This document shows positions 9,001-44,400 of a DNA stretch of 64,000 bases, in pieces. Under the pieces are notes generated by a model. That model was not told the DNA's origin. It worked only from the letters and a program-made list of their open reading frames with translations, and searched no databases. A program made the translations under genes and the position numbers. This DNA comes from Halichondria panicea (lineage: Eukaryota > Porifera > Demospongiae > Suberitida > Halichondriidae), in contig NC_087380.1 in NCBI RefSeq assembly GCF_963675165.1, positions 4,968,071 to 5,032,070 of the forward strand, written 5' to 3'. Each line of letters starts with the position of its first letter. Position 1 is the stretch's first letter.

Positions 9001-12000
9001 TTCACTTACACTAAAGAGTCTGTATCCCACCACCGAAATGAAGCCAGCGAGGAACCCGATAAGCAGTGCCCCCCAAGGTTGCAAAACCATGTCTGCCACA
9101 GAGCCAACTGCCACGCCTCCAGCCAAAGAAGCATTCTGGATATGCGTCTGCACAAACAAGAACATGAAGAGACACCATTATGCGACCAAAAGTACATGGA
9201 TGGCTTCATATATTGAACAACACTTCCTGCACTGAACAAACAACACAACTATAATAAATTAATGTCATGCTGTCAGTGGAGCACATTATTATGCCTCGAG
9301 GCGTAGCCGCACAAGGGATACGGTAAAGCTGACTGTGTGTGTGTGTCTGTCTGTGTGTGTATTCCAGCTAAAACTGCTCAACGGTTGCAATGCGACAAAA
9401 ACTAACAGCTTCTATAGGCTTCTAGCCACGTTCTTTTGGATTTTGATTCGTGGATTAGCAAACTAAAGCTTCTTTCTCGAGTTATGGCTAGTTCGACTCA
9501 CATTGAAGGCTGTTGCAAGTCTCTTCAGAATCTGTCATAGCATAATCTGTTCACACAAACTTTCTATTCAACTCATGAGTTAGCCTTGCACTAAAGCGCT
9601 AGCTTTTTGTTAGCTACAAGAGTCAGAAAAGATCTGTTAAAACTATGGCGCTATATTAGTGCCATAATTCAAAGGGGTACCCTAATGAAAAAAGTATACC
9701 CCCTAATAAAAAAAAGTATACCCCCTAATGAAAAAAGTATACCCCTTAATGAAAAAGTATACCCCCCTTGAATTATGGCACTAATATAGCGCCATATAAA
9801 ACAGCTAGCTATAGTAGCCATCGAGCCATTGTGCTCGATCTCTTTGGACACACCCTTTAATTATTCCTGTGGATGCAATGCGCATGCGCGCTCATCCCCA
9901 CATGTTAGAGAATCCAGTGAAAGAATCAACTTCTTTTTCTTGAGGTTCTGGTATACCGGTAAGCCACAAAACAAATGATACCAGATAACAATAAATTCAT
10001 GTACACAAGTCTGGTAACAATAGATACATGTACACAAGTCTTTTCTTCTCAGTATTAATATAGATAGATGACAATCAGTATATACCATAATATAATAAGC
10101 ACATTGCAAATTATTTACCTCTTCTATAACACTCTAATACTTTTGAGCGAAAGCAAAAACATGGCGAGAGGCATTGGTAAGCGCACGCTTGCAACACTCG
10201 TTCTTTAATCATTTATTGCATGCTGTGTAACTCACCATATCAAGCTTTCTCTTATTGTTGAAGAGCATAGAGAAGATGAAAGTGGAGATGACACTGGCGG
10301 TCATGGAGTAGTAAGTGTTGATCACTGCTCTATACTGGGCATTGCCTGACGCTAAAGCTCCGTTAAAACTGGGCCAGAACATCCACAGGAATATTGCACC
10401 TATAATTATGATTGTGTAAGTGATTATGAAAGTGGCACGTCGTGCTGAATCGAATCAGTAAAAACACAAACCATGAAAACTAGCAGGGAATTTAGTATGC
10501 ATCAGTGGTCGTCAATCCAACTAAAGTCACTGTATTGTACTCGTATAAAAATGATATAGGAAGCAGCAAGAATGTCATATGCAGCTGCTACATGTAACCC
10601 TGCACGGATAAGATGACATTACTTTTAGGCATATAAAGGGCTTCACGTGGCACTGAAATGTCTAGGTGTGACTTCTGTTGTTATTGCTAGGTGGGATTTC
10701 TGTTGTTATTGTACTTACATGTGATAATCTAACAAAAATAACCGTGTGTTGACAGTAGGTAAATGTAGATTTTGGAAATACCCACTGAGCAAAATTTTAG
10801 ATGAGTCACACACTTTGTCTCCCTAATACAATAACTTCAGCAAAGATGTCATAAACAATCATACGTATACAATAACACTTACCGATCATGGCGAAGAGGT
10901 CTGAGTGATAAACAGTTGAGTTTTTGGGATGGTTACTAGCCTTCTTTCTGTAGAGCATCACGGAAACACCCAGTCCAAAGTAAGCCCCAAAAGTGTGGAT
11001 GAGCATAGAGCCACCGATGTCTGCAGCTTTGAACACGAAATGGTTAAGAGCTTCATTAGAGGAGTAAAAGATAATCTCAAAGAATGTGATGACAATGAGT
11101 TGGAATGGACTGGCTCGACCCAGAACTGCTCCCATGGTTATCAGTGCAGCTGCAGCTCCAAAGTCAGCAGTTACCATGCTGTATGTTGGTACACGTGCAT
11201 ATATGGAGTATAAAGTATTTCTTGAATCAAAAATCAAAATGAATATGTACCATACAAATGGACCTTTATTGTAAATAATTTATATTCCTTGTGATTATGA
11301 TAATGATTACATAATAGCCTAGGGGCATGGGTAAAGGCAACAATGTTAAGTACATGCAGCAAAACTGTATGCATGATCCCGTATGCCTATTCTCATACAT
11401 GTACACACTATTACATGTAATAGGTACAGATTGATGAAAGTGAGAGTACCAAATCTCTTCCTGATTCACTTACTGATAAAGTTGAGTTTGAAATTACTAA
11501 TCACACTCCCGGCGACTTTAAACAAGCTGTGCGGTCATTACAACCACACTTCTCATGCTGACAAACACAGCTTAGATTGTTTGGGTGCTTAGATATTACA
11601 GTAGTATAATGCCTATACTGTCAAGGGAAACTGAGGACTGAAACTTTGCTTGCTTATTTCCGGGTGAGGGGAGAATCTTAAGTGTGATTATTTACTTCCT
11701 ACCTCTCAATGCTAACATGAATGCTGCAACATGTGTTTGTCTTTGATTGCTCAATGAAGGTGTACACACCGCTGGCAATGGTGTACCACTGGATGGCAAA
11801 AGCAGCCACCAGCATGTTGAACGCAACACTCCCAAACCCATAGCGACGAAGGAAAGTCATCAGAAACCCAAATCCGATGAAGATCATAACGTGGACATCT
11901 TGGAAAACTGCGAAAAATAGAGTTTGTACCTATACACCGTGTATCAGTGATTGTATACACACTAGACCAAACAATTCGTACCAGTACAGTGCACAGTGCA

Positions 12001-18044: not shown

Positions 18045-20410
18045 TTAATTGTCAGGAGTAAAAGTAACTGAGCTACTGGGTCTCCTAAGATCGGGTGTGG
18101 AAGGGAGCCCACCAAAAGCTTTTTTCTCCTCAATACTCATATTTTGGGGAGTATCAGAAATTTCTTTCGAAAGTACACTAAACCATGGTCTCTTCGACGG
18201 CTGTTTAGACCAGCATTTAATCATGAGGTCATACACACCATCAGGGCATTGATCAGGCTTTGGAAGATACTTTCCTTTCAGTACGTGCTGGACCACCTGA
18301 GCATTGGTGAGCTTGTCATACGGCCGAGCTCCAAATGTGAATACCTCCCACATCACAACACCGTATGACCATATGTCAGAGTAAACAGAGAATTTGCTGT
18401 GACGAATGGTTTCTGGGGCTAGCCAACGAAGAGGTAGTGGGGTGCTCTTTGCTGAACTCGAGCTTAGGCAGCAGTAATCTTTTGACTGCTGATCATAGCT
18501 TAGACCGAAGTTGGCTATCTTCACGCTCAGCCCATTCCCAACCTATATACATAAATGATGCTAGATTTAGTTATTGCAAAATGTAATAGCATAAATTTGT
18601 AGGTCTTAAAAACTTACCTGACAATTCCTAGCAGCAAGGTCTTTCATCACGAATGCTTTCTTGCTCAAGTAATCCATTCCATCAGCAATCTGGTGAGAAA
18701 TGTTACAAAGATCATCTATTCCGAGTGGCGAAGCATTTGTAGAAGGGCAGTTGCTTGCAGTTTCATTTAACACCTCATCGAAATTAAACCAGGCTGAGTT
18801 CAGTGACTGTAGAAAGTCTTTTAGTGAGCCGTACTCCAGGTACTCGTAAATCATGAACATTGGTTCTTCACGGCAGACCCCCAAGAGTGTTATCACATTG
18901 CGATGGTTAAATCCTGATGCCCAGGTCATCTCAATCAAGAACTGCTGCCTGACTTTAGCAGATGCCCTCTCTTTGAGAGATTTTATGAAAATGGTCGTAG
19001 ATACAACATTCTCTTCTAAACCTGTCGCCTCGCCTTGATATGTCATACCAAAATTGGTTTCCCAGAGGTCTTTAAGCAAACAAATATTAATATGAGGAAA
19101 CTCCAATTCGTTTAATCTCTGTTTAGGAGTCATATTGAGGTACTCTTTGTTAGTCAAGCGTTTAGCTAATGTGCTAGATCTTGGTGACATATTAACAAAC
19201 AGGGCATTCTGATAAGCAGATTTTCGCAGCATTAGTGTTCCTCTTTTTCCAGACTCGGGATCGCTAATTGGGCCAGTGTCCGGAATATCAAGCTTAAATT
19301 CAATAGCCTCTTCTAACGGATTTACACTACCGTTTTTCTCATGATACTGTGGTATACTGTCTCTTCTCTTTGGCTTTCTCATTTGGCAGCAGCAAAATAT
19401 GATCAGGAAAACAAAAACTGAGAAGGAGATTACTGGAATGCCGACACCCAAACAGACGGCAGCAATAAGAGTAGTGTTTGGATCATTGTTGTTGCTTGGA
19501 GGGTCTGTTGTGGGTGGCTGGGTAGGTACACAGCTGTCAGTTAGGGGCGGGCCTGTACACAATAATATTAGTTTATAATTCAGTGAATATCAGCGATACT
19601 AAGTACACGTAAGACAAAACATTTGGTTACAGTGTACATCTACATAATAATATACAATGGTTTAGTCTGGACATGTTATCAAGCTCTCTTAGACTCTTAC
19701 CAGTATTGATAGAGATACAGTTTGTTGTCATGGCAAGCGAGCTGTTACAGTCACTCTCTTGCTGTAGACTCGGTAACTTAATACTTTTAATTCTACGAAG
19801 CTCATTGATAATGTTTGTGAAAATCCTCCAATGCTGAACAGAACAATCAGTTCCAATAACACCCACACAATCTTCTACACACAATGTTGAATTGACTGGT
19901 ACGTATTCAGTAGTTTCTACCGTCAATTCCGCATGTTCACACACTGAGAAGACTTCATGACAATACAGGTTAACAAATCCTGTGAAACATGATTGTGGTA
20001 TCTCGCCAGCTTGAACGCTTAGCTGAGCCAAATCGAAGACTGATTCAAGCTCACCCTCTGCGTCAGCTAGCGAAAGTTGTTGAACAGCAAGGACATGGTC
20101 ACAAGATGTGAAGACGCTCTTACAGTGTAGAGACAAACCACCTGCTTGTGTGTAATATTGCACACAAGATGGCTGTGCTTGTGTAGAGGCAGTGAGCAAC
20201 CTATGAAGAATAACAAATGACAACAATAAGCTAGATACAACCCCATGATAATTAGTTAATAATTATTGTCAACGTTAGGTCCTTTAGCTTGGGTGTATAG
20301 ATCTATAATTATAGCCTCAAATTATTGATAGTGAGTTTGACAATACATTGGCAATAAAGTGGATGGAGAACTCACACGAATTCAAATAGAATTACTAATA
20401 GGACACTCAT
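18045..20410 (-). CDS. ROR-like receptor tyrosine kinase with degenerate catalytic motifs
   Basis: Single-pass receptor of 655 residues in four exons: 20410..20376, 20200..19701, 19552..18618 and 18542..18045. Exon 1 plus the start of exon 2 give a signal peptide, MSVLLVILFEFVLLTAST. Residues ~25-160 hold about ten Cys in a Frizzled-like CRD pattern. Then come a Thr/Pro/Asn-rich stalk, a TM near 205-232 with a Cys-rich cytosolic edge, a juxtamembrane region and a kinase domain (~325-630). Kept: beta3 Lys (TIFIKSLK), alphaC Glu, Asp of KDLAARN and APE. Changed: the glycine loop reads LWETNFGMTY, HRD reads VMKDLAARN, and DFG reads NFG (AAC codon). FVHKDLAARN and a non-standard DFG also occur in vertebrate RORs, so ROR kinship is likely. 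Loss of the DFG Asp suggests weak or no catalysis. No Kringle or Ig domain is seen. Confidence 0.85.
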
Positions 20411-20675: not shown

Positions 20676-23600
20676 TTATCTGGTTGGTACACCAATCTTT
20701 GAGTTGTACAGTTTCTCCCCAGCACTGTTCTTGGATGCTCTCGTGTGCTTGAGAAGGAGAGCCTTGATCGAAAGTGTTGGCGTTTCCAGATCACTGCAGA
20801 GAGATAAGTCAATGCAGATAACGGTTTTTAGCATAAAAAGTAGTATAGAATGATATACCGTATACCGGGGGTAATTTTTGAGGGTCAAGCTGCGAAAATT
20901 TCAACTGCGAAAATGCATGTTCAGTATTAAAGTCCGCTAAAAAAACTGCTATATTTATCCTCGCACAAAAATAGAGACTATTGAAAATTATCCACTACAT
21001 GTATATGGTATTATAAATTATTTTTATCTACAAGAAAAACGGCCCTTTTTTGACGAGGCTAATACACCTAGTCTGGGGGGCCAATCAAGTAGAGCTATAG
21101 GATTAGGTCTGGAGACTTAGTATTGCCTTTGGATAGAGCGAGAGTATTGCTACATCTACTCCTTCTTTGAACCTCCAATGTCCAAGTGTTTATAGTCTCT
21201 AACTAATGGACATTCCAAGAGTACACAGAAATATGCTGCAAGAGTCTCCACACCTTTTCTCCCTTCTTTCCCTTCCCCCTGAGTGGCCGGCCCCCAGACT
21301 AGCTAATACCACAGTAGACTACAATGAGGCTGTTACATGCATTGAGCTTATTAGGTGGCATGAAAAGGACAAGTTAGTATACAAGCTAGATCGAATCATT
21401 ACCATAATTAGCAATAGAGCTATATATATACGATCATGAAAAAGAAGATTTGTGTACCTGATGTACGGTTCAATCTCTTTATGTGTCCATCTTTCTCGTA
21501 CCTCAAAAATTGATTTAAATCTGTGTGTGAAGGAATAATCAGCAAGCATACATGACGTAGCATTAAAATCCCGACATTTTCATGAGAAACCACACAACAC
21601 AGCATGCAGCCAGCATGAATTATAGGGGAGGGGGGAGCTAGCATTGTGACAGAGACAAACAAGAACCTTAATTTATCCGGAACCTCAATTAAACGGCTCG
21701 AACATTTTCTCAGAAAACAGGCATGTCCCTTAATGCGCATGCGCAATTAAGAGCTGTTACCATGGACACAGGCATGTTTATCTTCTGCGCATGCACAGCA
21801 CGTGCACTGCTGTTTATTAATTAAGTGCCTGGATCAAGGCAGCGTGATTATCCAGTTACTCTGGAACCATGGTGTCCGGATAATCGAGGTTCTACTGTAA
21901 CCTGAAGTCCCTCATAATTATGTTTCACATCCATCACACAATTATGTGGCAGTACCTTGAGGTGGGATCGTGTGGGAGGTTGCTGACAGGGAAGTGCCAA
22001 ATGACAGGAGGAGCAGATGTCATGTCAGCGAGTGCAAGACCCTGTGCAATGTGTATATAATAAATTATATGCCACATAATATAATCTGGTTTGATCATCC
22101 CTGTACACATTCTCCCCCTGGACACACTCAGTGTCAATGCACTTGCAGTTATGGACTTGGTGAAATTGTTACAGGTTACTGCTGTATGCATGCAGCAAAG
22201 TCTCCTGGCCATGCAACGTAAGAATGAACCAAAAAATGTTTGCATGGGATTATATGGCTGATTGGTACTTCCAACACTACACAAAAATCTGGCTCACGAT
22301 ACGTACATTCTTTTGTTCCATATGGCCAGTGAGACTGGGTTTACGTAACTATTGCGAAAAAAAAAAAGCATAACACAATCCTCGGCCTCGGCCTACACCC
22401 CAGAGTAGAGTATTGCAACTGAAAGTATATGTGGGCCCGTGTTTCCATTCACACACCTCCAGTTGGTCGAGGCTAGTGTCCATACCATCAGGAACACTCT
22501 GCCGCCAGGATGACATGAACTCATGGTAATTAAACTGCACAGAGAAAGTGCAATAACATTCATGGAACACTGCTGGGATTCATGACTTCATGGCTTCAGA
22601 AAGGATGACCAATAAAACACCTAAAGCCACAACATTTAAAAGTATGCCATACAAGCACCACTATATCGTAACTGACTACAGGATAAGGATAATTCAGGAG
22701 ACCAATCTCTGAGACCACATCCTCTGGAGCATACAAATACATGTAACATATACAACGTACATGTATACATAACACATACAGCACACATTTGACACTACAC
22801 ATTCGGTGCCAACCTTTCCAGCTGGTCGCAGCAACAACTCTGCATAAAACTGGCAGACCTTCAACTCAGATAGCTCATAGCAAACACGGCCTGAAAAACA
22901 TATTTAAAACATAAACAGCCCTAGGAGCAGACTGGCTTATACCCGTATGGTATTACATGTATGTGCATTATATACATCCTGTACGCTGAATGATTGTGCG
23001 TCCATGAACCGTACACATACCAGAGTCATCTTGTTGTCTACATCCGTAACAGTTTAGGCAGTGCTCGAGTGCGAAGCTGCATTCGTTAAAGATAATGGGG
23101 ATAATGGGGATATGTATTAAATTTCACCATAATTATGTACATGTATGGTAATTAATTAAACTACATTATACATATTCCCCCTACACATGTGACTGTAAAG
23201 CTGTTGTCAAAACCTCAGCTTTTTATCCCACAGTATACACTATGGGGGATTATACTCAATCAAAACAGGTGCGTGATTTCATACTAAACCAGGAAATTAG
23301 CAAAAGGAGAAACTGCTCATATCCCAATTATGTCCAACGCTGAGAATAAGTACATGAGGTGGTGGATACGTGCAACACCTCACCGTGGTTCCAATTCCTC
23401 TAGTTTTGAGATGGTTTGCTCAAGGGGGACCTGTTTGTAGCTCCAGTCCTCCTCCTCCAATAGTGTGAGAATGTACTGACACACTCGGTCTCTGTAGTCA
23501 GCATCAAACACACGCCAGTAACCTATAGGGAGGAAGTGTATTTGTACTGTGGACATAAGTGATGATCGAAAGTTCAACAGAGAGAGAATGTTCACTTCCT

Positions 23601-25121
23601 TTACAATAGCGGATGTTAATTAGCATTTATGGACAGGCTGGATGCATTGGAAGACTTCCATCCTTCTTTTGCGAGAAACACAAGGGTTATTCTGTTACAT
23701 TTAATATGTATTATGTATGTACATGGGATGATAGCTAGAGCACCCTTTTACAATTAATGTACCTGTTATTGGGCAAGCCTGCAGCTTCTCCAGGGCCTCT
23801 ATTAGTTCTCTCTCACTCGCTTGTACTCTACACAGCAGCTCCTCAAACGTGTACTGTAAGTACAACGAGAAGTAAAAGCAGCCTGACTATGCAACTGATG
23901 CCTTTGATTAAAGTAATGGACTCAAGTAATCCTACATGTAGTTGTTGCAAAGCAGTTAATCTTCCGTGCAGTGGATGATGTGTACCTTTGCTGGACCTCT
24001 ACTCTTTTTTGACGATCTCTGCTCGCTGACCTGTAACTCCTTACCGACGTCCTCTTCATACTCTTGACCTCGGTAGGGGACCTCAGAGAGCAGTTGCTTC
24101 AGTTTCTCAGTTCTAGGGCGAATTGGTCGCAATTCCAGATAGCTGGACAAACTGCCAGTTACCTACAAGTAGTGGGGAGGATATAAATAGAGAGCCATAT
24201 TCAACAGGGATGCTGAGATCGAGTCGTGTAGGTGAGCATTTAGGGTGGTGACATCATCCTTTTTACTGTAGAAGGACATATGTATGTAGTACACTACTCA
24301 CCTCTACATTAAGAATGGAGCCTTCTTCAGTATCACTGAAATCTGTGATAATATATTTTGAATTCCCACATTATCAGTACATGAATAACACTACCATTGA
24401 GACACTGAATTAAGAGTTCGTAGAGCGTGTAAGTGATATCAATGGGGAACTATAGCATGTATCAGGAGTGCATGCGCAGGCATGTATGTAAAATAGTCAA
24501 TAAGAAATTCAGCAGCTTCTACACAACTAATTGTGCAGCAGATTTGATCGCACCATTGTCTCCACGGAGGCGAAGAGAGGGAGTGAGGAGGAGCATGTTG
24601 GATGTGTCAGCTGCCCTTAGTTCAAATGTCTGGTCCTCAGTACACAGGACGGCATCATCACTAGCCTCACCACGAATCACAACACTGCAAGTGAATTAAT
24701 GTGTATACATGTAAATACAGGGTACAAGTAGCCTTGTTCATCCTAAATAAATGCTCTAATGATTGAACTACTACTAATTGTGACAGATGGTAGCCAACTT
24801 GGCTTGTGAGAAGCCTTAGATACTAACCAGTTGTACGAACAGATATATACGGTTTATAGTATCAAATGCACCCACACACCTTTTTCCATTGCTGAGAGAA
24901 GAGAGGACTTGTGGTGGCACCTCGAGCAATTTGTAGTCTTCAGTGTTGAGCATTGGGCTGAACCTGAGCAGCTGCACTGGTCCCTGTGTACTAGTGAGGC
25001 CGGCCGCTTGGGCTGCACCCCTCACCTGTTCCGCAGTACGTGTAAGAGAGGTAGAGGGGGTGGAAGTGGGGGACGTTAAACTTGTGGGTGTGAGGAAACT
25101 CTCCATCAGAGATCTGTGCAT
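20676..25121 (-). CDS. DSCC1: Sister chromatid cohesion protein DCC1
   Basis: Subunit of the CTF18 clamp-loader variant, which loads PCNA and supports sister chromatid cohesion. Twelve exons: 25121..24880, 24684..24554, 24342..24302, 24162..23986, 23853..23763, 23522..23384, 23076..23021, 22890..22814, 22534..22457, 22041..21956, 21520..21458 and 20793..20676, giving 432 residues (human 393). Signatures: VVIRGEASDDAVLCTEDQTF, ADTSNMLL, YLELRPIRPRTEKLKQLLSE, VQASERELIEAL, GYWRVFDADY, EHCLNCYG, SWRQSVPDGMDTSLDQLE, LADMTSAPPVIWHFP, IFEVRERWTHKEIEPYI and a C-terminal LLLKHTR. The match covers the whole length. The true start could be the internal Met at 25106; the first residues are not conserved. 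Confidence 0.93.
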
Positions 25122-27568
25122 GCGAGAAGACAGCTGGGTAAATTTAATGGCCTGATTTTTTCACAACAGATCACATGAAAATGAAGACGTACCTGCGTAC
25201 TAAGCTAGCTGGTTTAAAATATAGGAGATGAGTAAAATCAGGAGTTCAAATAAACTCCTGGTAAAATGGATGTATGTCACAATAAGATACCTTCTAGGCG
25301 AGTTCATACAGCTGTTGTGGTCAGAACCGTATGTACACATACACCCATTTGTTGTTGATGGGGAAACATTTGTATGGGGTTAGGGCACGTTGCGTATACC
25401 GTCGTGATGCAACTTGTTTGCTGCTAGATTTTAGTGCCATATACATGTATACTAATAGCAACCGTCAAATATGGATAAGAGCTCCTACAACGTGAGCTGA
25501 GCTGGCTCTGCAGTGTGTTGATGCAGTAGAACCCTGTCACACTGTCAGCCAAATCACCCACCACATTAATTTTATAATTATAGCTGCACCACCTGTGGGG
25601 GATTTTTTGACCAATTCATTTGCCTTGATCAAACGTACAATCTAGTTTTTTTACAGATGAACGTTTACTGGTAACGTCTCGTGAATTGTGGGGCAGTGTC
25701 AAATACATGACCAGGCTTCCTACTAATCTTACACTACGATTACACTATGAATACAAAGATAAAATGACCATGAAAGTCAATCTCAACAAAACATTGGATT
25801 AATTACTTGGGGAAATTTGACGAATAAAGTAAATGATTTTTAATGGATAACATCAGGAATATCATGCACTCCTGATAACATGCACAGGCTCTGGAAGCCA
25901 AACCCTAATAGACACTAACATTCATTTGTAATGACTGGAACAACAAACCATGGCAACATTTCCATACATATATACCAAGAATTAATACAAGCTATCAATC
26001 AACATGCAGAGTCTGTATAAGCATACAGTCAAGGAAATGCATCCTCCCATTTGACACTTGGTACTGTGTACACTACCTAAACAACATTAACCATAGCAAC
26101 TAAAGGGTGTATTATTATTGTTTATACACGTATAGTTAACAACCTAGTATTTACAAGCCACATACGTACCTGCATGTGCATGCACCCTAATTAGTAGGGA
26201 CACACAATGTGATTAAGCAAGGTGTTCTCAAGGAGATTAAGTTTATACATGTCAAGTGATATACTACGGGGAGCGTTTTAATGGCTAGGCATTTTGTACA
26301 TATAGCTATGACCACCAGGTGTAGGGAACACTTCTAAGGTGGGAGAAACACAGTGCATTACGTCATTTAACACCAAAGTTATTTTAGTATGGTAGTACAT
26401 GGTAGCACACCATAATTATTCCAGGGTCTCTGATAAGTAATCAGAGTCATACAGAGTCATACAAAGGTAAACTTGCTGTGGTTACAGTACATTGTTAGCT
26501 AAGAGGTTGGTAAGGTGAGTACTTCCTGAACCGTAGACGAAGCCTTACCAATGCACTCATTGTATTTATAGGGTTTACACTAGCACTTGAGAGCATTCTC
26601 TTGCACGGAGTATTGCACAAGTACAACACCAAGCTAGTACAATCAGTGCTCTAATAGCTAATACAAGTTTCAAGCAACACTTTGATCTGAGCAGAGCTTA
26701 GGTTACAAATTGTTTGCCTCATCAGTTGGAGGACTATATAGCTACCATCATCAAAACCTGAGGTCAGTGCTAGCAGGGTAAGTGCATGCTGTATGCTGTA
26801 GCATAGCAATTCAATACCAGTAGAGACAGGACAGAGTATGCTCCTGGTTGGTTTAATGATAACTTGTGCTTAGCTGCATGGGTAATAATTAAGCAGTGGC
26901 ACTATGAATAGCATAACTTACATCACATACATAGACTAGCAGGGAGAGTTGTTACATCATGCTCAGCCTTCCTTGGTTTGAAACGTTTAGTACAAGAAAC
27001 AGGCAAACCTAAAGCGCTATAGTGTTAGTACATCCCTAATTTGAACGTGCTAGCAAGGCTCGCAGCTGCAAATGAGCTAACAACACCTTTCTTTGTAGTC
27101 TCGTGGTCCGGACTCCATTGGACTAGTTTACGCACATTAGCACTAGAGACTATAATTATGCTATAACATAAGTTTGTTGTTCACTAGGGATATAGGAAGA
27201 ATCAACACTGGAAACGTGCGTAGGCTCAAAACAGAAGCATACTTCAGATGATTTAGATATGAGCACAATACTCATCCTGACCGTTTATAGTGATAATACC
27301 ACTCATCGTCTTCACGTGAATAAGATGGTCACAGAACTACATTATCTACAAGTCTTAACTTACAACAATGTATCTATAGCAATTGTAACTATAGTTATAA
27401 GAGTTATTGTACGTACAAAGTAACAATTGTAGCAAGCCCTGGGCATGCGCTTAATTTAGAAACCACTGTAAAAACAGCTCACAACAATGTAAATAAAATT
27501 ACATGTGCATGCATGTACTAACTCCAAAATTCTTTATTATCAGACTATACATGTAGATCGGTATGATA

Positions 27569-27821
27569 CGGTGGCCCTGAGTTGTACTCCTAGTTGATAG
27601 TCATACTTGATAGTTCAAACGCGTAGTTGGTAGTTTCGCAGTTGCTACTAGATAGTTCAAACGCGTAGTTCGCAGTTGCTACGTACTTGATAGTTCAAAC
27701 GCGTAGTTGCTACTTCGCAGTTGCTACTTGATAGTTCAAACGTGTAGTTGCTACTTCACAGTTGCTACTTGATAGTTCAAAACTGCCAACTACCAACTAG
27801 GAGTAGCACTCAGGGCCACCG
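27569..27821. mobile_element. TIR element with TA flanks and internal minisatellite
   Basis: The left end CGGTGGCCCTGAGT plus ACTCCTAGTTG (27569-27601) mirrors the right end CTAGGAGTAGCACTCAGGG plus CCACCG (27789-27821) over about 33 bp. TA flanks both ends, as with Tc1/mariner-type insertions. The interior is four imperfect copies of a roughly 40-55-bp unit containing TTGATAGTTCAAACGCGTAG and TTCGCAGTTGCTAC. Confidence 0.75.
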
Positions 27822-28753
27822 TAGTATGACGTATACATACATGCACAAATTATAAGAGTGTGTCCAAGTTTGATATCAAGCATCTTAAGGTGGGTGAAAT
27901 TGGCAAGAGAGCTACGTCAAAATAAGTGATATCACAGTGCACAGTATGGTTTCTGTTGTAAGCTAGGTATATACTCTATTACTAACCCTTTGAAAAGGAT
28001 TATACCGGTATTATCGTTTAGTAGCAAACAGATCAGATACTAATTTCCTGCTCTTTTATATTCACAAACATGTGACAGCAAGGTGTCTATATATCTCATC
28101 CACCATTCTGGAGCCAAGTACACTTAGCTAACAAATGCTATATTTAGGCTCAAGGTCATGCTGAAACAGGAAGGGAATGTAGGGAAGTTTGGCCAGTTCC
28201 TGTCACAAGTCCCCCTCCGGCATGTCTGGATTTAAAAAGAAACGCAATAACATCATTAACTTTTGCGCATGCGCACACACTGTTCCATAAGCTTCACACC
28301 TACTTACAACTTTGCAAGCAAACCTAAACTTAATTATTATCGTGTTAACATTCGTCATATTCGCACCACACGCCCACATGGTAATATAGAAGCTGTATGT
28401 AGGATGGGAAACAACTACCGTATAGCTCCACATTTGTGGGAATTGGCCGTGAACAGAATTAATGGATGGCCAAAAATCTTCTTGAGAAACCTGTGAAGTG
28501 TTTGGTCCACAAAAATTTGCCGCCGGTATGCAATTACTAGTGGCCTGAAAAGGTTTAACTGAAGTTTCTCCAGTACACACAAGTGGAACCATATATAAGT
28601 TGTTAAACAGAGCAAAGTAATCGTTTATTATATAATTATACTTACATAGAGAATACTAGCTACCGTAAATTACAGTGCCACAAAATAAATGATTTTCCCG
28701 TGGCACAAATAGAAGAAGAAAAAGTTGGCGCTTAGCGATAGAACGTACAGTAA

Positions 28754-29141
28754 TACCGTAATTGATGTAATTACAGCGCCAGAAATTAATTCCACTTCTG
28801 AGTGGCGCATCTTTTAGACCACAAAATATTGCGTTCAGCACAACTGGCGCTATGTTCTACAGCTAGTAAGAATTTGTAGAGAAAATGGGCATGGTCTAGC
28901 TCAGTTTCACTTGCTAGCTGCACCACCGTTGAGAGCTGAATGACTCATGACGTTTATTGACTGTAGTAGACAACTGTTTAGAAGTGTGAAGGGTCAACGA
29001 TGCAGAAAGATTGTCTTGATGTCTCAAACAAGCCTTTTTATAAGTGCCAGAAAAAATAATTCTAGCAACGGTTGGCCCATTTTTAGGACCGAAAAATTAT
29101 GCTGATGCTGACATGGCGCTGTAATTACATCAATTACGGCA
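28754..29141. mobile_element. MITE-like inverted-repeat element
   Basis: TACCGTAATTGATGTAATTA continuing CAGCGCCA (28754-28781) is mirrored by TGGCGCTG plus TAATTACATCAATTACGG (29113-29140). A related GTAAATTACAGTGCCAC motif sits outside at 28665 and GTGGTGCTGTAATTAG at 29252, so it may be nested in an older relative. Confidence 0.65.
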
Positions 29142-29570
29142 GTAGCAACCGTTCCATGACGTTGAGCAATCAGACGTATACTCAATTTCAGACAGGCTGC
29201 GTTCACTATAATTTACCTAAGTGCCAGCAATATAGCGCTTTTCTATTAGGGTGGTGCTGTAATTAGAAGAAAGGTACTGCCATGCCCACAGTGTTAAGAG
29301 TTTTATGTTCAGTTGGTAAAGGGTCATTAGATCTTTGTGTTAATAACAAGTTGTAGCTCAACAAATTTTATAGAGGTGCTCATTTGTGATGCATTTTTAA
29401 TTTGCACTTACAGATTTGTGATCCTCTCAGCTAGATAGCTACCTCAGACCCCTATATGCTCAGAGGCTAGACTGTGCACACCGGCACCATGCACATCATA
29501 CAGTCCATCCTCTTTATCTTTACAGGAGACTCCCCAAAGTGAAACCTGTCTAATTAAAGGAAATTACGTC

Positions 29571-32500
29571 ATGAGCATGATCGCCCAACCCGTGTTCAGT
29601 AAAAGTCCTCGAACTTCGGTGACTTCAGTCAACTCAATCAAGCTATACTCGAACTCGAACTCTAGCTCTTCTGCAGCTGAAGGGCTCGGCAACTCAGCGT
29701 CCAAATATACTTACACTTCGTACAGTGACTACACAGCTTCGCTTAAGAGAGACAAAGCTCAACCCAGTCAAAGCATGACCGATGCCGTTCGCCAGTCAAA
29801 CAAGGCAGCCATCTTGGCTGTTGGAGAGGAGCTACGCATTTTGCTGCACGAAGAAGACCCACCAATGATAAAGGACCGACGATTCCACCTGCGCTCCTAC
29901 CCGCAGTCTTTTGTTGGCTCAGAAATGGTGGATTGGTTGCTCAAGAAGGGGGAAGTGGAGACCAGGGCAGAGGCTGTCCAGATGATGCAGAAACTGGTGG
30001 ACTATGGAGTAATGCATCATGGTGAGGCTCAAGTAGCACAGTGTCTGTGTATTGTATAAATAAGGTAAAGTAAAGTGAGTACCTGGAGCCATAGTTTTAT
30101 TTTATACAGTATTGAAAGGCTAATAGTGAATTACATGAAAGCATGAAAGAGTCAAGTGTTGATCGATTCCCTTTGGTAGTCTGTCACATGAGTGCTTTGA
30201 CGTTCATAAAATTTGCATCAGCAATGCTTTTAGACTGCGTGTTTGGTTTCACATAGATAATAGTGATGCCTTGGCAGTTAATTGTGGTGGGTTGCTCAGT
30301 ATATTTACAGGTGTTAAGTTAGTGTTAATCAACTTATTGATTAGAACCTTGCCGAGCCTGCCAATGTTTCTCCTTGTGCTATTAACCCCAATCTAATAAG
30401 GGATTTGCTATAATACCAAAACAACCTATTTACATGATTGGCTGTTGCATAATTTGCGAGCTGGTTTGATCTGTTTGTTGATCAGCAGTGTCAATGATTT
30501 TTGAAATTGCCTGTTCCCATTTCTCTTGGTGTTAGCTACATCCACAGGGTATACCTTGGTAGCTCTTCTGCATGCATAAGTTTTGTTATGGGAAATTGGG
30601 GTATGTTAGGGTGCAAACAAGAATAATTTTTGGGTTCCTGTGTTTCTTGACCTTTGCATTCTCCAGACCAGTTGTCTAAATATGTTCGTATTTGCTAGTG
30701 GGATGGTGTGATGCTGACCCACCTTAGCCTGTGGGTCATGCACGTATAGTTTGTTAGCAAACAAGGAGTTTTTTGGCTGCCCTCTACTCCCTTATGCCTT
30801 TGCTAGGTTTGGAATCAACATGCAAAGACTTCCTAAACTTGTGTAGCTGACACTTCCTGCCATTAGCATCGGAAACAGAACATACAAAATCCTCTCCTGG
30901 AATAATATTTGCAAACGTAATTCCAGCTATTCCCGGGTGGCCCTGTGTGCTGCTTTGTAGTTTTGGCATCACTTCCTAAAGTACATGTAACTACCACTTC
31001 CTAAAGCACGTAGCTATGAATAAAAAATAACTAACACTATTTTCAATGCAGTGTGTGATGACCATTTGTACAAAGATGATTTCCTGTTCTATCGATTTCG
31101 AAGAGATGATGGCTCTTACAAGGAGGCTGCAGACACTGCTATTCTCGCCAAGGGGCAACGTCTGTACAGCAGGTATGTGGGAGCCATATACGATAGTAGT
31201 GAGTCATCTTTGAGTAGACTGCATATGGTGTCTATAGTGTGTGCGGTATGCCATTTGTGTTTCATGCATTAAATTAATGTTAGCTGTTAACTGGTGATAA
31301 TTATAATGAATCGTTAAGTTTTTCAACACTAGTTGATAGATCTACATGGGAAGTACATGTAAACTTGTACATGGGAAAAGTGCCTCAGAGCAGGTATACT
31401 AGGGACTGAGTACACCTGCTTATTTCGTTGTCAAGTAATTGTATTGTAGTCAAGCCTTGAGGGCAAAGTTTGCTCATGCGCACTAGTATCTAAATGAGTT
31501 AGACACTGTTTTGTCGGAGTCCATGTGATTTAGAAGCCCTCAGCCACTTGTAGTATCCTCGCTACGCTCGGGATACTAAATCAGTGCCTTTGGGCTTCTA
31601 AATCCCTACACATATCCAATAATTTATACATATAAAACAAATTAACTGGTTTTCACTGTATAAGTGTGCACAGTTTACACTACTTTTGTACACGAGGTGT
31701 TACATTTACAATCATTAGTCCCTGACTAGCATACTGGCGTTTGTAGTAATTAATGTACACTTACTGTGTGTTTACATACAGGCTACAGAGTGATGGCAGC
31801 AATTTGATCCAAGATCGCAAGTATCACCTCAAATCGTACAAGCGGTGTTTTGTAGCAAAAGATTTTGTGGACTGGCTCGTTGGTAGGGGCGAAGCTACTA
31901 ATAGGCTGGATGCTGTGGACCTGGGCAAGCAGCTTGTCGATGCAGAGGTCATCAGTCATGGTGAGTTTTTGGCTGAAATATAAAACATGTATTGTACATC
32001 TATTCTGCCGTTCCTAAAATTACTTACGATGTCACCTCTTAGAGCAGTGGCAGTAAAGATACTAACTAATTAAGATGAGCTTTTTCGTCTTTCCCCCAGT
32101 TGTTGGAGACCACCACTTCAAGGATGAGTTCCTATTCTTTCGCTTCAAGCACGATGAGAAGAACAAGAAGTTTCGCGAGCGTCTCCGCTCTCGCACTGCG
32201 TCCAACTCCTTCACAGCGTCCAAGAGGTCAACAAGGTCAGAAGATGACACTGGAAGTGGTGGGAGCAGTGTGGGTAACCGTGGGTCTGGAAGCAGTTGGG
32301 GGTCACGGGGGGAATCCCCTCAGAGCGCCACACCAGAACTTGATGAGTAAGTGCTCATACGTACTGTATTCACATTTTTTGTAATGTGCTTTTAAGCCTC
32401 TATACACATAAATTTATAGTGCACAATCATGTAACCAGCCTACACTTTGCTATCCACAGGTACGTGCAGATGCAAAGTCATCAGTTGGGCCTTAAGCAGC

Positions 32501-33445
32501 CCAGTCCTAGTTCTTCTCGCTTCACTCCCTCTCCACAGCCTCCCAACTCTACACCTCCACCTCCTTCGGCAAATGTACGCTCTAATGGGGTGGCCCCTGC
32601 TGCGACCTCCACTCAGGCTGCCAGACCAGCTGCCGAAGATCTGGCTAATTTGGACAAGTACAGCAGGAGAAAAGTGGATGTAAGTTATGACTCTATGTGT
32701 ACATAGTTCTACAACAGTTGAGTTTTCTAAGGCTTTAAGCTTCTTTAGTTTGTTATAGGATATTGCAAAGTGTATATGTAGTGGAAAGCCTGTGCATATA
32801 ATCAGTTTATTTTATGACTTTTTATGACTTATGATTGACAGTGAAGTGTTGATTTTCATTTACTCTGCAAATCCGTTACAGGTTGTCAGTGATCCTGTTG
32901 GCTATGGATTCGTAATCCGAGGCTCTCGACCAGTTTATGTTCACAGTGTGGATCCTAATGGACCTGCAGCTGCTGCTGGTCTTAAGGTGAGGTTCTACAA
33001 TATTCTACAATCTGTTGAATTAAGTGTGTATGCTTGTGCTCGTGGATGTTGTTTGTGTCTTTCAATTAAGGTAGAGTACCATTTCCTTTTTAACAAATGG
33101 AATTCCTAGTTCTGCCTTCACTTTGATCCTAAGTGCTTACAGTACATATATGTACATCCTCAATCTGCATACACCCTCGAACCCACACGATCCTAAGTGC
33201 ATGCTGTGATATGTACATGCAGTTACATGTATGTAAATCCTCAATCTGCATACGTCTTGGACCACACAACACTACTCATATCATGTGTCTATACTGTTTC
33301 GTTTTCCCTACAGGAGGGAGAATATCTGTTCTCTGTAAATGATCAGTCTGTGCTTCAAGCCTCACACACTGACGCTGCTCGTATCATTCTCATGGGCTCC
33401 AGCACGGCATTCCTCGTTACTCTAGTACCCAAAGACATTCAATAG
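29571..33445 (+). CDS. DEPTOR: DEPTOR: DEP-DEP-PDZ regulator of mTOR
   Basis: Cytosolic mTOR-binding inhibitor family. Seven coding exons: 29571..30021, 31052..31172, 31782..31960, 32100..32346, 32460..32679, 32882..32986 and 33314..33445, giving 484 residues (human 409). Domains in order: a Ser/Thr-rich N-terminus (~1-75); DEP1 (~85-190) with DRRFHLRSYPQSFVGSEMVD and DDHLYKDDFLFYRFRRDD; DEP2 (~205-290) with DRKYHLKSYKRCFVAKDFVD and DHHFKDEFLFFRFKHDE; a long Ser/Pro-rich linker with SASELDE-like text ATPELDE; and PDZ (~407-484) with GYGFVIRGSRPVYVHSVD and ILMGSSTAFLVTLVP. The two DEPs share the FLFxRF ending. The linker is where mammalian phosphorylation and degron sites lie; a classic SSGYFS degron is not seen. 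Start chosen as the first ATG of the open exon. Confidence 0.94.
31499..31612 (+). repeat. Inverted-repeat family C, half copy
   Basis: Reads TTAGACACTGTTT, GATTTAGAAGCCCTCAG, GCTACGCTCGGGATACTA and TTTGGGCTTCTAAATC. It resembles the full palindromic copy at 60006-60138 but lacks the right terminal arm. It lies in DEPTOR intron 2. Confidence 0.6.
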
Positions 33446-33754: not shown

Positions 33755-35740
33755 ATGGCATCAGGGGAAGTAGATGTACTGTTCGAAGTCAGGAACTCCT
33801 TTTTCCTTGGTAACTACCAGCACTGTATAACAGAGGCACAAAAAGTCAAGGTACTTTATTTAATAAAAGTAAAGTATTTAAACGACTCACTAAATAGTGC
33901 TGACCTACTTACACACAGCCTTCGACAGCAGCTGTTGCCATGGAGAGAGACGTTCTTATGTACAGATCATACATTTCCCAGGTATTTACTAAGTCGAGGT
34001 CTCGCGTTTATATACCGCACCGTATAGCACGAGGGTATAAATGTTTGCGGTTTTCGCTATACCCACAAATTTAATATCGCATGCAGCAGCAGAAAGGCTG
34101 CTATTCCGCGAAAATGTATACCCTCGAAATATACCCGCTATACGGTAACTACATGTACAATGCTGAAAAGCTATAAATAAACTGTGTTGTACTGTGTAGA
34201 AAAAATTTGCTGTTGTATTGGATGAGGTGACGAGCTCATCGTCAGCTGAGCTGCAGGCAGTCAAGATGTTAGCTGGGTACCTGCAAGGCCCGTCAAAGAG
34301 GTTTGTCGTAATCACGTTGTAGCTCCCTCCAGTGTGTTATGTACATTTGCACTGCATTTGATGTGGATTGTAAGGCCAATTGTATATAGTTACACTTTAT
34401 GCTCGGTCTTAACGCACGTCTCATGATCTGGTGAGTTGGATACATGTCCTCACTGATTACGTATTGTGCAGGGATGGCATATTGAAGCAATTAGAAACCA
34501 AACTGACCAGCGGTGTAGACAATGATGTATTCATTCTCATGGCAGCCTCAATCTACTACAATGAACAAGTAAAGAGACATTTAACTTGCAGGAAATTATC
34601 AGTTTACGTGTGCATTTATTAATCTCACATTATGCTAGGCATTGTATATTCCTTCAACACAGAATTACGAGTCTGCTCTGCGATGTTTGAACCAGAGTGA
34701 CAGTCTAGAGGGAGCCTCAATGAGAGTGCAGATATACCTGGCCATGCACAGAGTTGACCTGGCCAAGTAAGCATACATGTAGCAGATAATTATTTTGCTT
34801 GGTCTCAGAGGTTTGTATATAATTACACTCTGAAAAGATGCATTTGACCTGAGCTGTGCTAATTAATATGTATGGATAAACACTCAGGAAAGAGCTCAAG
34901 ACAATGCAAGAGAAAGATGATGATGCAACTCTCACTCAGCTCTCCCTCGCCTGGTTCAACCTGGCAGTAGGTGGAGACAAGTATCAGGATGCTTACTACA
35001 TTTTCCAGGAAATGGCTGACAAGACCACATCTACTTCCTTGCTCATTAACGGTCAGGCTGCTAGCTACATGGCCCAGGGAAAGTTTGACGAAGCGGAGGG
35101 ATTGTTGCAGGAGGCGCTCACGAAGGACAGTAACAATTCTGAGACACTTATTAATCTTATTGTAGTCTCTCAACATCTTGGGAAACCTTCAGAGGTAGAG
35201 TAAAAAGTGTTGCATATATTCAGTAATAAGATAAATTTGGTTTCAGGTTGCTAAGAGGTATTTGTCTCAGCTCAAGGACGGGCATGCAAACCACCCATTT
35301 GTTCAGGAGTATACAAAGAAGGTATAGTCATGCTTGCTATTTTGATGGGAATTATCGTAAGTAAATCTGTTTCGCCCAGTGTAAAGTTCAAACAGGGTGG
35401 CCACTGGCCAGACTATGGCGAAGGGGAGGGGCAGTATTATGTACACATGTTTCTTGCTATTATTTGGATCAATGTCCTCAAACACATGCCCTATATATAG
35501 CTGACAGGTACAATAATTATATAACCACAATAGAGGGAATCTGTACAGCCCTTGACTTTCCCTAGCTATAGCAGCTCAATTACCTAATCCCCGCCCTATT
35601 CTTTACTGTGTAGAGGAAACACTGGTAAATTGTATATACTCTGGGCTGTAAGTGTAATTATGTACTTTGGTGCTTAACAAATGCAGGAAGAAAACTTCGA
35701 CCACCTGGCAGCTCAATATTCAGCTTCAGTTTCACGTTAG
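33755..35740 (+). CDS. COPE: Coatomer subunit epsilon
   Basis: COPI coat subunit (TPR-like alpha-solenoid) acting in Golgi-to-ER transport. Eight exons: 33755..33850, 33919..33981, 34200..34300, 34472..34568, 34663..34766, 34888..35194, 35247..35321 and 35687..35740, giving 298 residues (human 308). Signatures: [123 protein letters not shown] and HPFVQEY. Start chosen by alignment of [14 protein letters not shown] with the family N-terminus. It follows DEPTOR on the same strand by 309 bp. Confidence 0.95.
34012..34147. mobile_element. Palindromic family D element in COPE intron 2
   Basis: The right end reads CGAAATATACCCGCTATACG-GTA. The left end is a damaged inverted copy (CCGTATAG, then GAGGGTATAAATG). 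The interior contains ATCGCATGCAGCAGCAGAAA and CTGCTATTCCGCG. The same family occurs at 38034, 38471, 39523 and 51842. Confidence 0.75.
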
Positions 35741-39856: not shown

Positions 39857-41494
39857 ACCTTCCATCAGATTTAACCCAACAATGAATCATTATCACTATA
39901 ATTGAAAATTGAAGGCCTCCGTTAAAGAAGGGATTGCTGCACTAACTTACCTGCGTAGATCAAAGAAGCCCCAGCTACAATATGGACAGTCGAAAGCAAC
40001 TAGTTAGAGACTTTGCGCTCACTCTTAACAAAGGTTAAAGGTAGCAATCAATCATTGATTTCAATCATGGAGAACTTTTACCTCCGTTTTCTTAAATATA
40101 CGAAATGTGACCCACTGAGCTAGGGCTGTAATGCTGACCCTACAGTTGAACACTCATCTACCTTGGTTAATATTATAGTATCAATGATAGTATCACTGAT
40201 AGTCATTTTCATATACTACATCACAACGCCTCTCAAGCCAAGATTATAGATTATGACAAAGAGTATAGAATGCAGAATGCAAACTACTGCATGGACCACC
40301 ACTTGTGTCATCACAACACAGGTAAATATTTGAAGCTCAAGCATGCAAACCAAGACTAAACAGTCTTGTTTTGACACACACTATGCATGCAAAAACATTT
40401 TCTGCCCTGGTGATTAATCATGTTACAATTATGGGATAAAGTGTTTGAATACCACAGTCAGAAGGTCACAATATTTAAATTACAGTAACTGTATTCTTAT
40501 TACAACAACCCCCCTTGGCCCTTGGCCAAATAGGGGTCAACACCTTGCTATCGTAAACACACTACTTTTATTGTGTGATCTGCTAGCCACAACTGCTTAA
40601 TGATATGGTTTCCACATGTCTCCCTTTGGAAAAGACCCCATGCATCAACTGTCCTATAACCATGTTTGGGCATCAGTTATGGATATTATTTATATACTAA
40701 GCTTACTCAAATTTACACTGATATACCTACCATGCACACGAACAAATCTCGAACTATTAAATGTAGCTATTATAGCTAGAAAGGCAACAAGTAGACTGTG
40801 CAATTACTAATACGATGTAGTAAGGCTAAGAGTGCAATATGAGATATGGCACGAGCAACAAGCAATGGCATGGATACTAATTGCACGAGGGTGTAGTCGA
40901 GTGCTATTAACCTTGCCAGTGCTTGTTATGAGTGCTATTAATCCACGAGTAACCATACTATTGATTTCTAATCGTGTATGATGAAGTTCTCTGCAGTTTT
41001 TAATAAAAATTTCGGCCACGGCCGTCGAAAACAATACATTGTCATTGACAGTGTGCAATTTCTTGACAGGTAATTGCACGCTGTCAATGACGACGTGCAA
41101 TTACTGAACCGGATGTGATACGGGATTAATTGCTATACACTCTCCTGTCGCTAATACTGAACACATCATACGATTATACCGGTAATGAAATACATCTGTT
41201 ATTTCTGGCCTTGTATTTTAATACCTAGGATCTGTGTGGGTGGCTTCCACCAATGATATCTATTCACCCACTGTAAATGAAGGTTTATAAACAACAGCCA
41301 AATAAAGTCATAACAGGTCTACTATTTTTATCACAAATTACACCTATAATGTGACTTCTTTGCTGACACATCTCAGTCAAACAAAGTATAGTGAAACAAA
41401 ATATTGTGTGTGGAACTCCAGGAATCAGAAGGTAAGTATTAGCTAACTGCAATGGCACACTCAAGGTGGTGTAGTTTATTTGAATCTTGTACAG

Positions 41495-44400
41495 ATGATG
41501 TATCGATCTACATTGAAGGCCTCCATGACAATGAATCAATGCAACGTGGTGATACTGATTGTACTTAATCTCATAACAGTGGTGAGCCCAACTATATCTG
41601 AAATTGTAGAGTCTTTTGATGATTGTGAGACAAATGCATGCAATTCACTACTGCATCACAACTTCAGTAACAAACCGAGTGTAATTTTGCATCTACTTCC
41701 CGGAACGCAATATGTGCCCCAACACATTTCAATCACTAACATTGGTACCGTAGAAATCGTTGGAAATGAAACGAACCTACTATTTGAAGAATTAGGTGCT
41801 CTCGTCTTCAAAAATATCACCAAGTTAATTATGAGGAATTTGAAACTACTAGAGCAAGTTGCAGTTGATATCACCATGGTTAAGGATATACTGCTTGAAA
41901 ATTGTTATGTGAATGGAAAAGGATTGAAGAGTGCGCTTTATATCGCCAATGCTCACACGGTATCCATTGCCGACTGTCACTACACAACATCTCGAGGTGG
42001 GGCTTTGTCGGTGAAGGATGTAATTCATCTGTCGATTAAAGAGAGCTCGTTCAAACACAATAAAACTTCTAATTTTGTACTGAATGGGACAATTGTTCTA
42101 GAAAATATTCAAACAGCCATTATAGATAACTGTACTATGATCAACAACAGTGTTAACTGCCGTACAAAAGGTTGTAAAGGTGGAGCAATTACATCAATCA
42201 ACACACACCAACTACGAATTTTGAACTCTATATTTAAATGGAACACAGCATATGGTGTTAATGCCGTTCATGGCATAGGTGGAGCTATCTACTCCGAAGC
42301 AGATCAACTAGAAATAACCAACTGTCAGTTTGAAAAAAACAGTGCTAATTTTGGTGGATCTGTCTACATTAGTCAAGGCTCTTTAAGCAGCTCCTTCAAT
42401 ACATATAAACTGAACCAAGCTACAGGTGCTGGTGGAGCAATTTACATTCAAGGACACATTTCCACATCAATGGATCACTTCAACTCTAATAGTGCAAACT
42501 ATGGGGGTGCAATTTGGGCTCTTACCAGCAACGCTACCAGTTTTGACAACCATTTCACAGAGAACAATGCATCGTATAGTGGAGGGGCATTTTTCTTTAG
42601 TCTTGCCATGAATGGATTTTTTAAGAGCTCCCAGAATCGGTTTAGTAAAAACAAAGCTATTTCTGAAAGGGGAGGAGCTATATACATGCTGTTAACTACA
42701 ACTTCTGCTACAACCCATTGCTTAGAGCAGCACCAACGCTGTACCGATCTTGCTGGTATTTATCAAGGTGAAAAACTTTTTTCAGGCGTAGGCGTATTCT
42801 CTAGCTTCAATGATACCTATACGATGAATACAGCAAACAGAGGGAGTGGTGGGGCTATCTATGCTGTGACTATCACTAGCTATATTAAATCGGCTAGATT
42901 TATCAGAAATCAAGCATGGCAACAGGGTGCTGCAATTTCTCACGTCGGAAACTCACTTGAAAGTATTGATACTGAGTTCTCTTACAACAATGCTTGCGAC
43001 AATAGTACACTATACATCAATTCCGCCACTCTTGTGAGCAAAGATTGCAGATTTGTTAGCAACAATGGATCACTCTTTGTTGTGAATAGCGTCATTGAAA
43101 TTGATGGGGTTACTCTATTTGCGAACAACCTTGGTATTACAGGAGGGGCAATAACGAGTATCCAAAGTCTCATTTCTTTTGTGGGTAGTGGAAATGTAGC
43201 TATCACAGGGAACAAGGCGGAGCACGGAGGAGGAATATCATTGTTTGAAAGTCAATTAAATGTTTCATGCTCAGTAAATATTTCAAAGAATGTTGCAACA
43301 CATACTGGAGGGGGGATTTATGCATATCGAAGTTCTATCTCATTTCAGGCACGAAAAGAAGTTATCTCAATGGAACTCACCAAAAACACTGCTTTGTTTG
43401 GGGGCGGATCCTATCTCTTTGCTTCAACAATAAAAATATTTCAAGACGAATTTATGTTAATGAGTCGCTCAAGACTAATCTATTACAATAATAGTGCAGT
43501 GCTTGGAGGAGCACTGTACCTAGATCAGACATCAAAAATATATTTCTACAGAGTGCTGTCTGCTCCTGAAAACATTTTTGACATAGAGTTTTGTCAGAAC
43601 ATTGCAAACTATGGAGGTGCTGTTTACATATCAGACGATACAGCATCGAGTCAGCTGTGTGAAAACACAAAGAAAAGAAATTCTGACCACTCTGAAGCCG
43701 ACTGCTTTATTCAGATACTTCAATTAGGAACTGTTGCAGTAGAAAATCCACCGAGCAAGCAGCAATACCAGCAGCACGACTACACAATCTCTTTAAAAGA
43801 CAATGTAGCAAATGTGAAAGGGAGTGCATTGTTTGGAGGATTATTTGACCGATGTTCTTTGAACTATATTGCAGAAGACGTAACTACCACTACTGAACCA
43901 AATTATTACCAGGCAATCTACATGATGACATTCTGGGACAACAAAAATCTGAGTAGCCTCATAGCATCAAATCCTGCACAAGTGTGTTTCTGTACCAATG
44001 TACTAAACAACACATATAACTGTACTACAACAAAATTGATTCTATCGATGAGAAGAGGTGAAACATTTAAAGTTGGGATAACAGCTATTGATCACATTCA
44101 AACTCAACTCGCAGCAACAATAGCAGCTACATTTAGTTCAAATGGTGGTGTCGGGGTATTTAAGAACGGGCAGACACGTCAAACTATTGAGAAAACCTGC
44201 ACAGAAGTGGAGTACAATGTTTACTCAAGAGAAACAGAGGTGCAGTTAGACATCTATGCTGATGGCCCTTGCAGCAATAAAGGGCTCTCAAAGAAGATAT
44301 TAGAAGTGACATTCCAGCCATGTGAGTGCCCAATCGGATTTAAGCCAACAGAAACTAAAACTGAATGTGTGTGCGACTGTGATAAAGAATTGTATGGGAA

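Follow-up and report, generated by a model that had tools for sequence, protein, structure and literature searches.

We analyzed a window of 64,000 nucleotides of Halichondria panicea DNA (contig NC_087380.1, positions 4,968,071 to 5,032,070), in which two genes, DSCC1 and DEPTOR, lie head to head. DSCC1 occupies 20676-25121 on the minus strand and DEPTOR occupies 29571-33445 on the plus strand, both numbered by position in the window as are all coordinates below unless a contig is named. Both genes have complete coding models, and their divergent start codons are separated by 4,449 bp (25122-29570). DSCC1 is one of the subunits that make up the Ctf18 clamp loader, in which Dcc1 binds Ctf18 and Ctf8 and which is used in sister-chromatid cohesion, and DEPTOR inhibits the growth kinase mTOR. 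The gene models were built from the sequence alone by picking exon borders at GT/AG so that the reading frame stayed open. The GT-AG borders in 11 of 11 DSCC1 introns and 6 of 6 DEPTOR introns are thus a product of the construction and no independent test of the models. An earlier sequence-only reading had placed the 5′ end of DSCC1 at 25121 on the minus strand and the start of DEPTOR at 29571 on the plus strand, and all four end coordinates were exact when the genes were modeled exon by exon.

The coding sequence of DSCC1 starts at 25121, has a stop codon ending at 20676 and is divided into 12 coding exons that encode 432 amino acids (24880-25121, 24554-24684, 24302-24342, 23986-24162, 23763-23853, 23384-23522, 23021-23076, 22814-22890, 22457-22534, 21956-22041, 21458-21520 and 20676-20793, the last including the stop codon). 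The end of exon 2 was set by the frame and by a GT with a weak donor context. The protein matched the Pfam family Dcc1 with 316.2 bits against a cut-off of 22.9, covering the full profile (1-319 of 319), and a comparison with solved structures returned the DCC1 chain 5msm_A, which we take to be the yeast protein, with an E value of 2e-11. When the 131-Mb genome was searched with the Dcc1 profile (PF09724) and five of five candidates were scored exon by exon, both matches fell inside DSCC1, and this search found no second Dcc1 locus.

DEPTOR has seven coding exons (29571-30021, 31052-31172, 31782-31960, 32100-32346, 32460-32679, 32882-32986 and 33314-33445, the last including the stop codon), with 1,030 bp in intron 1 and 609 bp in intron 2, and encodes 484 amino acids in a DEP-DEP-linker-PDZ architecture. 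The model runs from a start codon to a stop codon of its own. The Pfam scan gave 151.7 bits for DEP in two stretches and 34.3 bits for PDZ, and it detected no RhoGEF or PH domain there. The best match among solved structures was the DEPTOR chain 7owg_O, presumably from human, with 243 bits over residues 76-475. With the tandem DEP region alone, P-Rex1 scored 165.9 bits compared to 178.7 and 180.6 bits for two DEP-only DEPTOR chains. The P-Rex1 score was so close to that of DEPTOR on the DEP part that paralogy needed testing. A DEP profile search of the genome gave 14 matches, and two separate, close DEP domains were present only in DEPTOR and in one gene on another contig, C10. In the C10 gene, four successive frames upstream of the DEP domains matched RhoGEF, a single one of them above the cut-off, and two frames matched PH, both under the cut-off; because these matches precede the DEP domains we regard the gene as P-Rex-like. 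A quartet tree was then computed from the tandem DEP regions (LG+G4, 200 bootstrap replicates); it held four sequences only and joined the C10 peptides without a splice-site check. In this tree, human DEPTOR was the partner of the window protein, and human P-Rex1 was that of the C10 protein. This grouping had a bootstrap value of 100, and the two alternative topologies were each worse by a log-likelihood difference of 28.3 (approximately unbiased test, p ~0.0005). The assignment of the window gene to P-Rex was ruled out by the 243-bit match, the tree and the separate gene on C10. The sequence-only reading had left room for non-orthologous paralogues; given the single Dcc1 locus and the architecture, the structure match and the tree for DEPTOR, both genes instead look like orthologues. 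Elsewhere in the genome, four DEP-domain matches lie within 280 kb of contig C3 (7.80-8.08 Mb), perhaps a local gene expansion.

The phosphodegron in the linker of DEPTOR is given as SSGYFS (PMC8191632; PMC8439657). Neither SSGYFS nor the pattern [DSTE][ST]GxxS was present in the window protein, which has a looser DTGSGGSS at residue 300. The gene is named DEPTOR despite the missing degron, because architecture and tree decide. The residues of the human PDZ domain that touch the FAT domain of mTOR are 336-342 and 354-362 (PMC8439657). With the chain numbering taken as human, 12 of these 16 positions were identical in the window protein; over the rest of the PDZ domain the figure was 19 of 56. 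These contact stretches overlap motifs that are conserved across PDZ domains generally. According to a 2021 review, only vertebrates have DEPTOR (PMC8191632), and the gene described here, in a genome that also has a separate P-Rex-like gene, argues against that statement. DEPTOR was already reported in scallop in 2024 (PMC11591371), so our result extends an existing correction. Among the literature matches listed, few of them examined beyond the title, no report of a sponge DEPTOR was found, and DEPTOR is unmentioned in the main text of a review of the evolution of the TOR pathway. If the assignment to sponges is right, the split of the tandem-DEP family into DEPTOR and P-Rex predates that branch.

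The 4,449 bp between the start codons hold no recognized gene, as the sequence-only reading had it. Pfam searches of 11 of the 12 stop-to-stop frames of at least 60 amino acids contained in the gap (the frame at 27324-27521 was left out) gave nothing over the cut-off, and two weak matches of 13.3 and 13.6 bits against cut-offs of 27 were attributed to chance. An Rfam search with gathering thresholds also gave nothing in the gap, and its sole match in the window was a tRNA at 7640-7712. A gene or a known structured RNA in the gap is thus unsupported. The gap contains two repeat elements. The first, at 28738-29157, is a dispersed repeat of about 420 bp that resembles a miniature inverted-repeat transposable element (MITE), with 44-base inverted ends that are 82% complementary. 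It recurs in at least 39 other genomic places, over ~260-430 bp and with 78-89% identity, and in six further short pieces; the counts are lower bounds since the best 40 of 332 candidates were scored. The second, at 27567-27823, is a foldback element of 257 bp in which 35-base inverted ends (91% complementary) surround tandem repeats with a period of 41. When the gap was compared with 147 kb of other DNA, only the MITE-like repeat was matched, and the search for copies of gap sequence gave one further match, located in the first exon of DSCC1. On inspection of the plus strand upstream of the DEPTOR start codon, a pyrimidine-rich stretch that resembles the end of a splice acceptor, TTTATCTTTACAG, was seen at 29513-29525. 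Because this acceptor-like sequence ends at 29525, DEPTOR may have an untranslated exon within the gap. The ratio of observed to expected CpG, which averages 0.52 over the window, was 0.53-0.69 beside DSCC1 and 0.63-0.89 over exon 1 of DEPTOR, as judged by eye.

In vertebrates, with gene order taken as printed in published lists, ENPP2, TAF2, DSCC1, DEPTOR and COL14A1 are listed in this order in human (PMC4534011), and the same list is given for chromosome 2 of chicken (PMC11507135) and for chromosome 13 of dog, where MTBP is named before them (PMC5418765). DSCC1 thus adjoins DEPTOR in all three lists, as it does here, whereas the outer neighbors of the pair in the window are a receptor tyrosine kinase gene and COPE, TAF2 shares the contig but lies 2.5 Mb off, and the MRPL13-like genes are found on a different contig. 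The claim of the sequence-only reading that the pair is arranged as in vertebrates therefore stood for the side-by-side position in human, chicken and dog. Its other half is the orientation, human DSCC1 (minus strand) and DEPTOR (plus strand) presumably being divergent at 8q24.12; orientation was given in none of the texts examined.

The wider linkage was followed by profile searches of this genome with eight families that have human members on 8q22-24. Human WASHC5 and FAM91A1 are on 8q24 and ATP6V1C1 is on 8q22-24. EIF3E, RAD21 and TAF2 are on human 8q23-24 (PMC4534011), and MRPL13 and MTBP stand beside DEPTOR in the dog list (PMC5418765). The TAF2 family (TAF2_3rd), whose identity was also read by eye, was found at 2.50 Mb of contig C4, the contig that carries the DSCC1-DEPTOR pair at 4.99 Mb. 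Five of the eight families had their matches on contig C2, namely Rad21_Rec8 (RAD21), strumpellin (WASHC5), ribosomal L13 (MRPL13-like), eIF3_N (EIF3E, as two equal loci of 27 residues) and FAM91_N (FAM91A1), and the V-ATPase C family was on contig C3. The MTBP_mid profile had no match in the genome, which shows nothing since it was silent in the controls too. We take the L13 loci on C2 to be MRPL13 after reading their translations against the human sequence, and there is a further L13 locus on contig C16. Three of the MRPL13-like loci lie close together on C2 (7560902-7573581) with translations that are very alike, perhaps recent duplicates. Apart from the linkage of DSCC1 and DEPTOR, the RAD21, WASHC5, FAM91A1 and MRPL13 families, whose human members are all on 8q24, fall within 1 Mb of one another on C2 (~6.6-7.6 Mb). 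One intact block like human 8q24 around the pair was ruled out, as the families are scattered over C2 (five), C3 (one) and C4 (one), and a small inherited pair fits better. It follows from this spread that human 8q22-24 mixes genes of at least two contigs found here, of which DSCC1-DEPTOR and TAF2 belong to C4. The presence of TAF2 on the same contig supports a common ancestry of the linkage, and its distance, together with the scatter of the other families, shows how far gene order has decayed around two genes that remained close.

The arrangement would be explained if DSCC1 and DEPTOR were inherited as divergent neighbors from an ancestor that this animal shares with the vertebrates. From this genome and the published vertebrate lists, we consider it very probable that descent and not coincidence accounts for the adjacency, and descent is also the simplest account of the divergent orientation and of the linkage to TAF2. 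The likeness to the vertebrate pair would be false if the second gene were a P-Rex fragment or some other tandem-DEP protein. The near-equal P-Rex1 score on the tandem DEP part and the missing serine-rich degron point that way, but several results make this very hard to believe. The gene has a start and a stop codon of its own, and its product has the full DEPTOR architecture, lacks a RhoGEF domain and as a whole protein scores 243 bits with DEPTOR; the tree rejects its grouping with P-Rex, and a P-Rex-like gene exists separately on C10. A second alternative is that the two genes met by chance, separately in this lineage and in the vertebrates. The two lineages have their genes in scrambled order relative to each other, a genome-wide scan is expected to meet some chance pairs, and the comparison covers just two lineages, this animal and the vertebrates, which also weighs against the claim of descent. 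If one assumes 12 genes per 64 kb, however, the chance that two given genes are adjacent and divergent is ~3e-4 on this contig and ~2e-5 anywhere in the genome, figures that apply to two prespecified genes and are uncorrected for the scanning of many windows. In addition, TAF2, the vertebrate neighbor on the other side of DSCC1, shares the contig here, and we regard chance adjacency as improbable. Scans of viral and prokaryotic contig collections gave no relative, a result that tests nothing about animals.

The best overall explanation that we can offer, an inherited divergent pair kept by cis-regulatory DNA, has about an even chance of being right, and the cis-regulatory cause, to us the likeliest one for the retention of the pair, is taken by itself a tentative suggestion that falls a little short of even. 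Control sequences upstream of one gene or of both would lie in the 4.4-kb gap or in introns 1 and 2 of DEPTOR, and because they would lie there a break in the interval would harm a gene; each gene would be expected to have its own promoter, with some elements shared or interleaved, rather than both using one bidirectional promoter. We lean towards regulatory DNA in these places by analogy with Amphimedon, where enhancer-like signatures were present in adults at 43 of the 60 conserved microsyntenic units (PMC5429095). The gap is more than ten times as long as each flanking gap (4.4 kb compared to ~0.3 kb from the DEPTOR stop to the COPE start and ~0.4 kb from the DSCC1 stop to the kinase frame), which hints at regulatory content. 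At the human 8q24.12 bone-density locus, variants (lead rs11995866) are cis-acting expression quantitative trait loci for both DSCC1 and DEPTOR (PMC7188784), which fits shared control and is no proof of it. Several observations weigh against the overall explanation. The flanking gaps separate genes on the same strand and were measured to open frames, so they are not a like-for-like control, and the stretch from COPE to an open frame at 41447, which is unannotated, is another long one with no recognized gene. Repeat elements make up 677 of the 4,449 bp (420 MITE-like and 257 foldback), leaving 3,772 bp. By eye, the gap showed no single shared CpG promoter peak, and CpG was also raised at 27001-27900 and 28201-29300, regions that overlap the repeats only partly. 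To our knowledge, DSCC1 and DEPTOR have no common function. None of the names DSCC1, DEPDC6, DEPTOR and TAF2 occurs in the main texts, tables aside, of two papers on microsynteny (PMC5429095 and PMC8851819). Passive retention, in which an ancestral pair was never broken, with few breakpoints in a short interval and no shared control, is a serious possibility and nearly as likely as the regulatory reading. It agrees with the retention of ancestral linkage groups by sponge, cnidarian and bilaterian chromosomes (PMC10232365), with TAF2 still being on the same contig and with the lack of a shared promoter signal in the CpG profile. On the other hand, six of the eight tested 8q22-24 families are on other contigs (five on C2 and one on C3) and TAF2 is 2.5 Mb away, so the surroundings were shuffled while the pair stayed tight. 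A bolder version of the regulatory reading, which we think unlikely, is that the pair is a regulatory unit older than the split from the vertebrates, in which the DNA of the gap would balance a factor for replication and cohesion against an inhibitor of mTOR and so link the decisions to copy DNA and to grow, and which stayed intact while its surroundings were shuffled between chromosomes.

The flanking genes were identified from open frames and Pfam matches. Beyond the stop of DSCC1, a receptor-type tyrosine kinase gene lies on the minus strand at 18048-20262, located by frames only and with no start codon found, with a PK_Tyr_Ser-Thr match of 103 bits on 18609-19589; the frame at 18048-18542 was assigned to it by eye, and its cysteine-rich N-terminal frame (19630-20262) matched no Pfam family at an E value of 0.01. 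On the other side, the gene for the coatomer epsilon subunit, COPE, was traced over 33755-35200 on the plus strand, with a Coatomer_E match of 151 bits on 34880-35200 and the first ATG of the upstream frame at 33755. The frame at 41447-46081 is a single open frame of 1,545 amino acids with a Pfam match to the PMP-type repeats of chlamydiae; on visual inspection, several hydrophobic stretches lie near its C-terminal end. An ammonium-transporter-like exon was also seen at 10809-11279, and a UQCRB-like exon (UCR_14kD) at 641-1075; human UQCRB is presumably on 8q22.1, on the chromosome arm that also carries the human pair.

Pairs of this kind have been described before. Ancient animal microsyntenic pairs were described by Irimia and colleagues (2012), and the presence of 60 of them has been confirmed for Amphimedon, a sponge (PMC5429095). 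As in those pairs, two unrelated neighboring genes are found together here and in vertebrates. One of the two types distinguished in that work consists of a developmental regulator and a bystander (PMC5429095), whereas the pair described here consists of a cell-cycle gene and a growth-control gene. The head-to-head orientation is shared with the bidirectional-promoter pairs of Amphimedon, in which the start sites are 1 kb or less apart (PMC4773876), but in our case 4,449 bp separate the start codons, which are not start sites, and there is no single shared CpG peak. We know of no role for either DSCC1 or DEPTOR as a developmental transcription factor. Among the literature matches listed, judged by title and the start of the abstract, none dealt with the DSCC1-DEPTOR pair outside the vertebrates. 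The pair probably adds a new case to a class that is already known, ancient microsynteny of animals, a placement made apart from the published tables of pairs. It joins a gene of the cell cycle with a gene of growth control, and if the two prove to be adjacent across early animals, they would provide a compact, testable case of unrelated genes that have remained neighbors for hundreds of millions of years.

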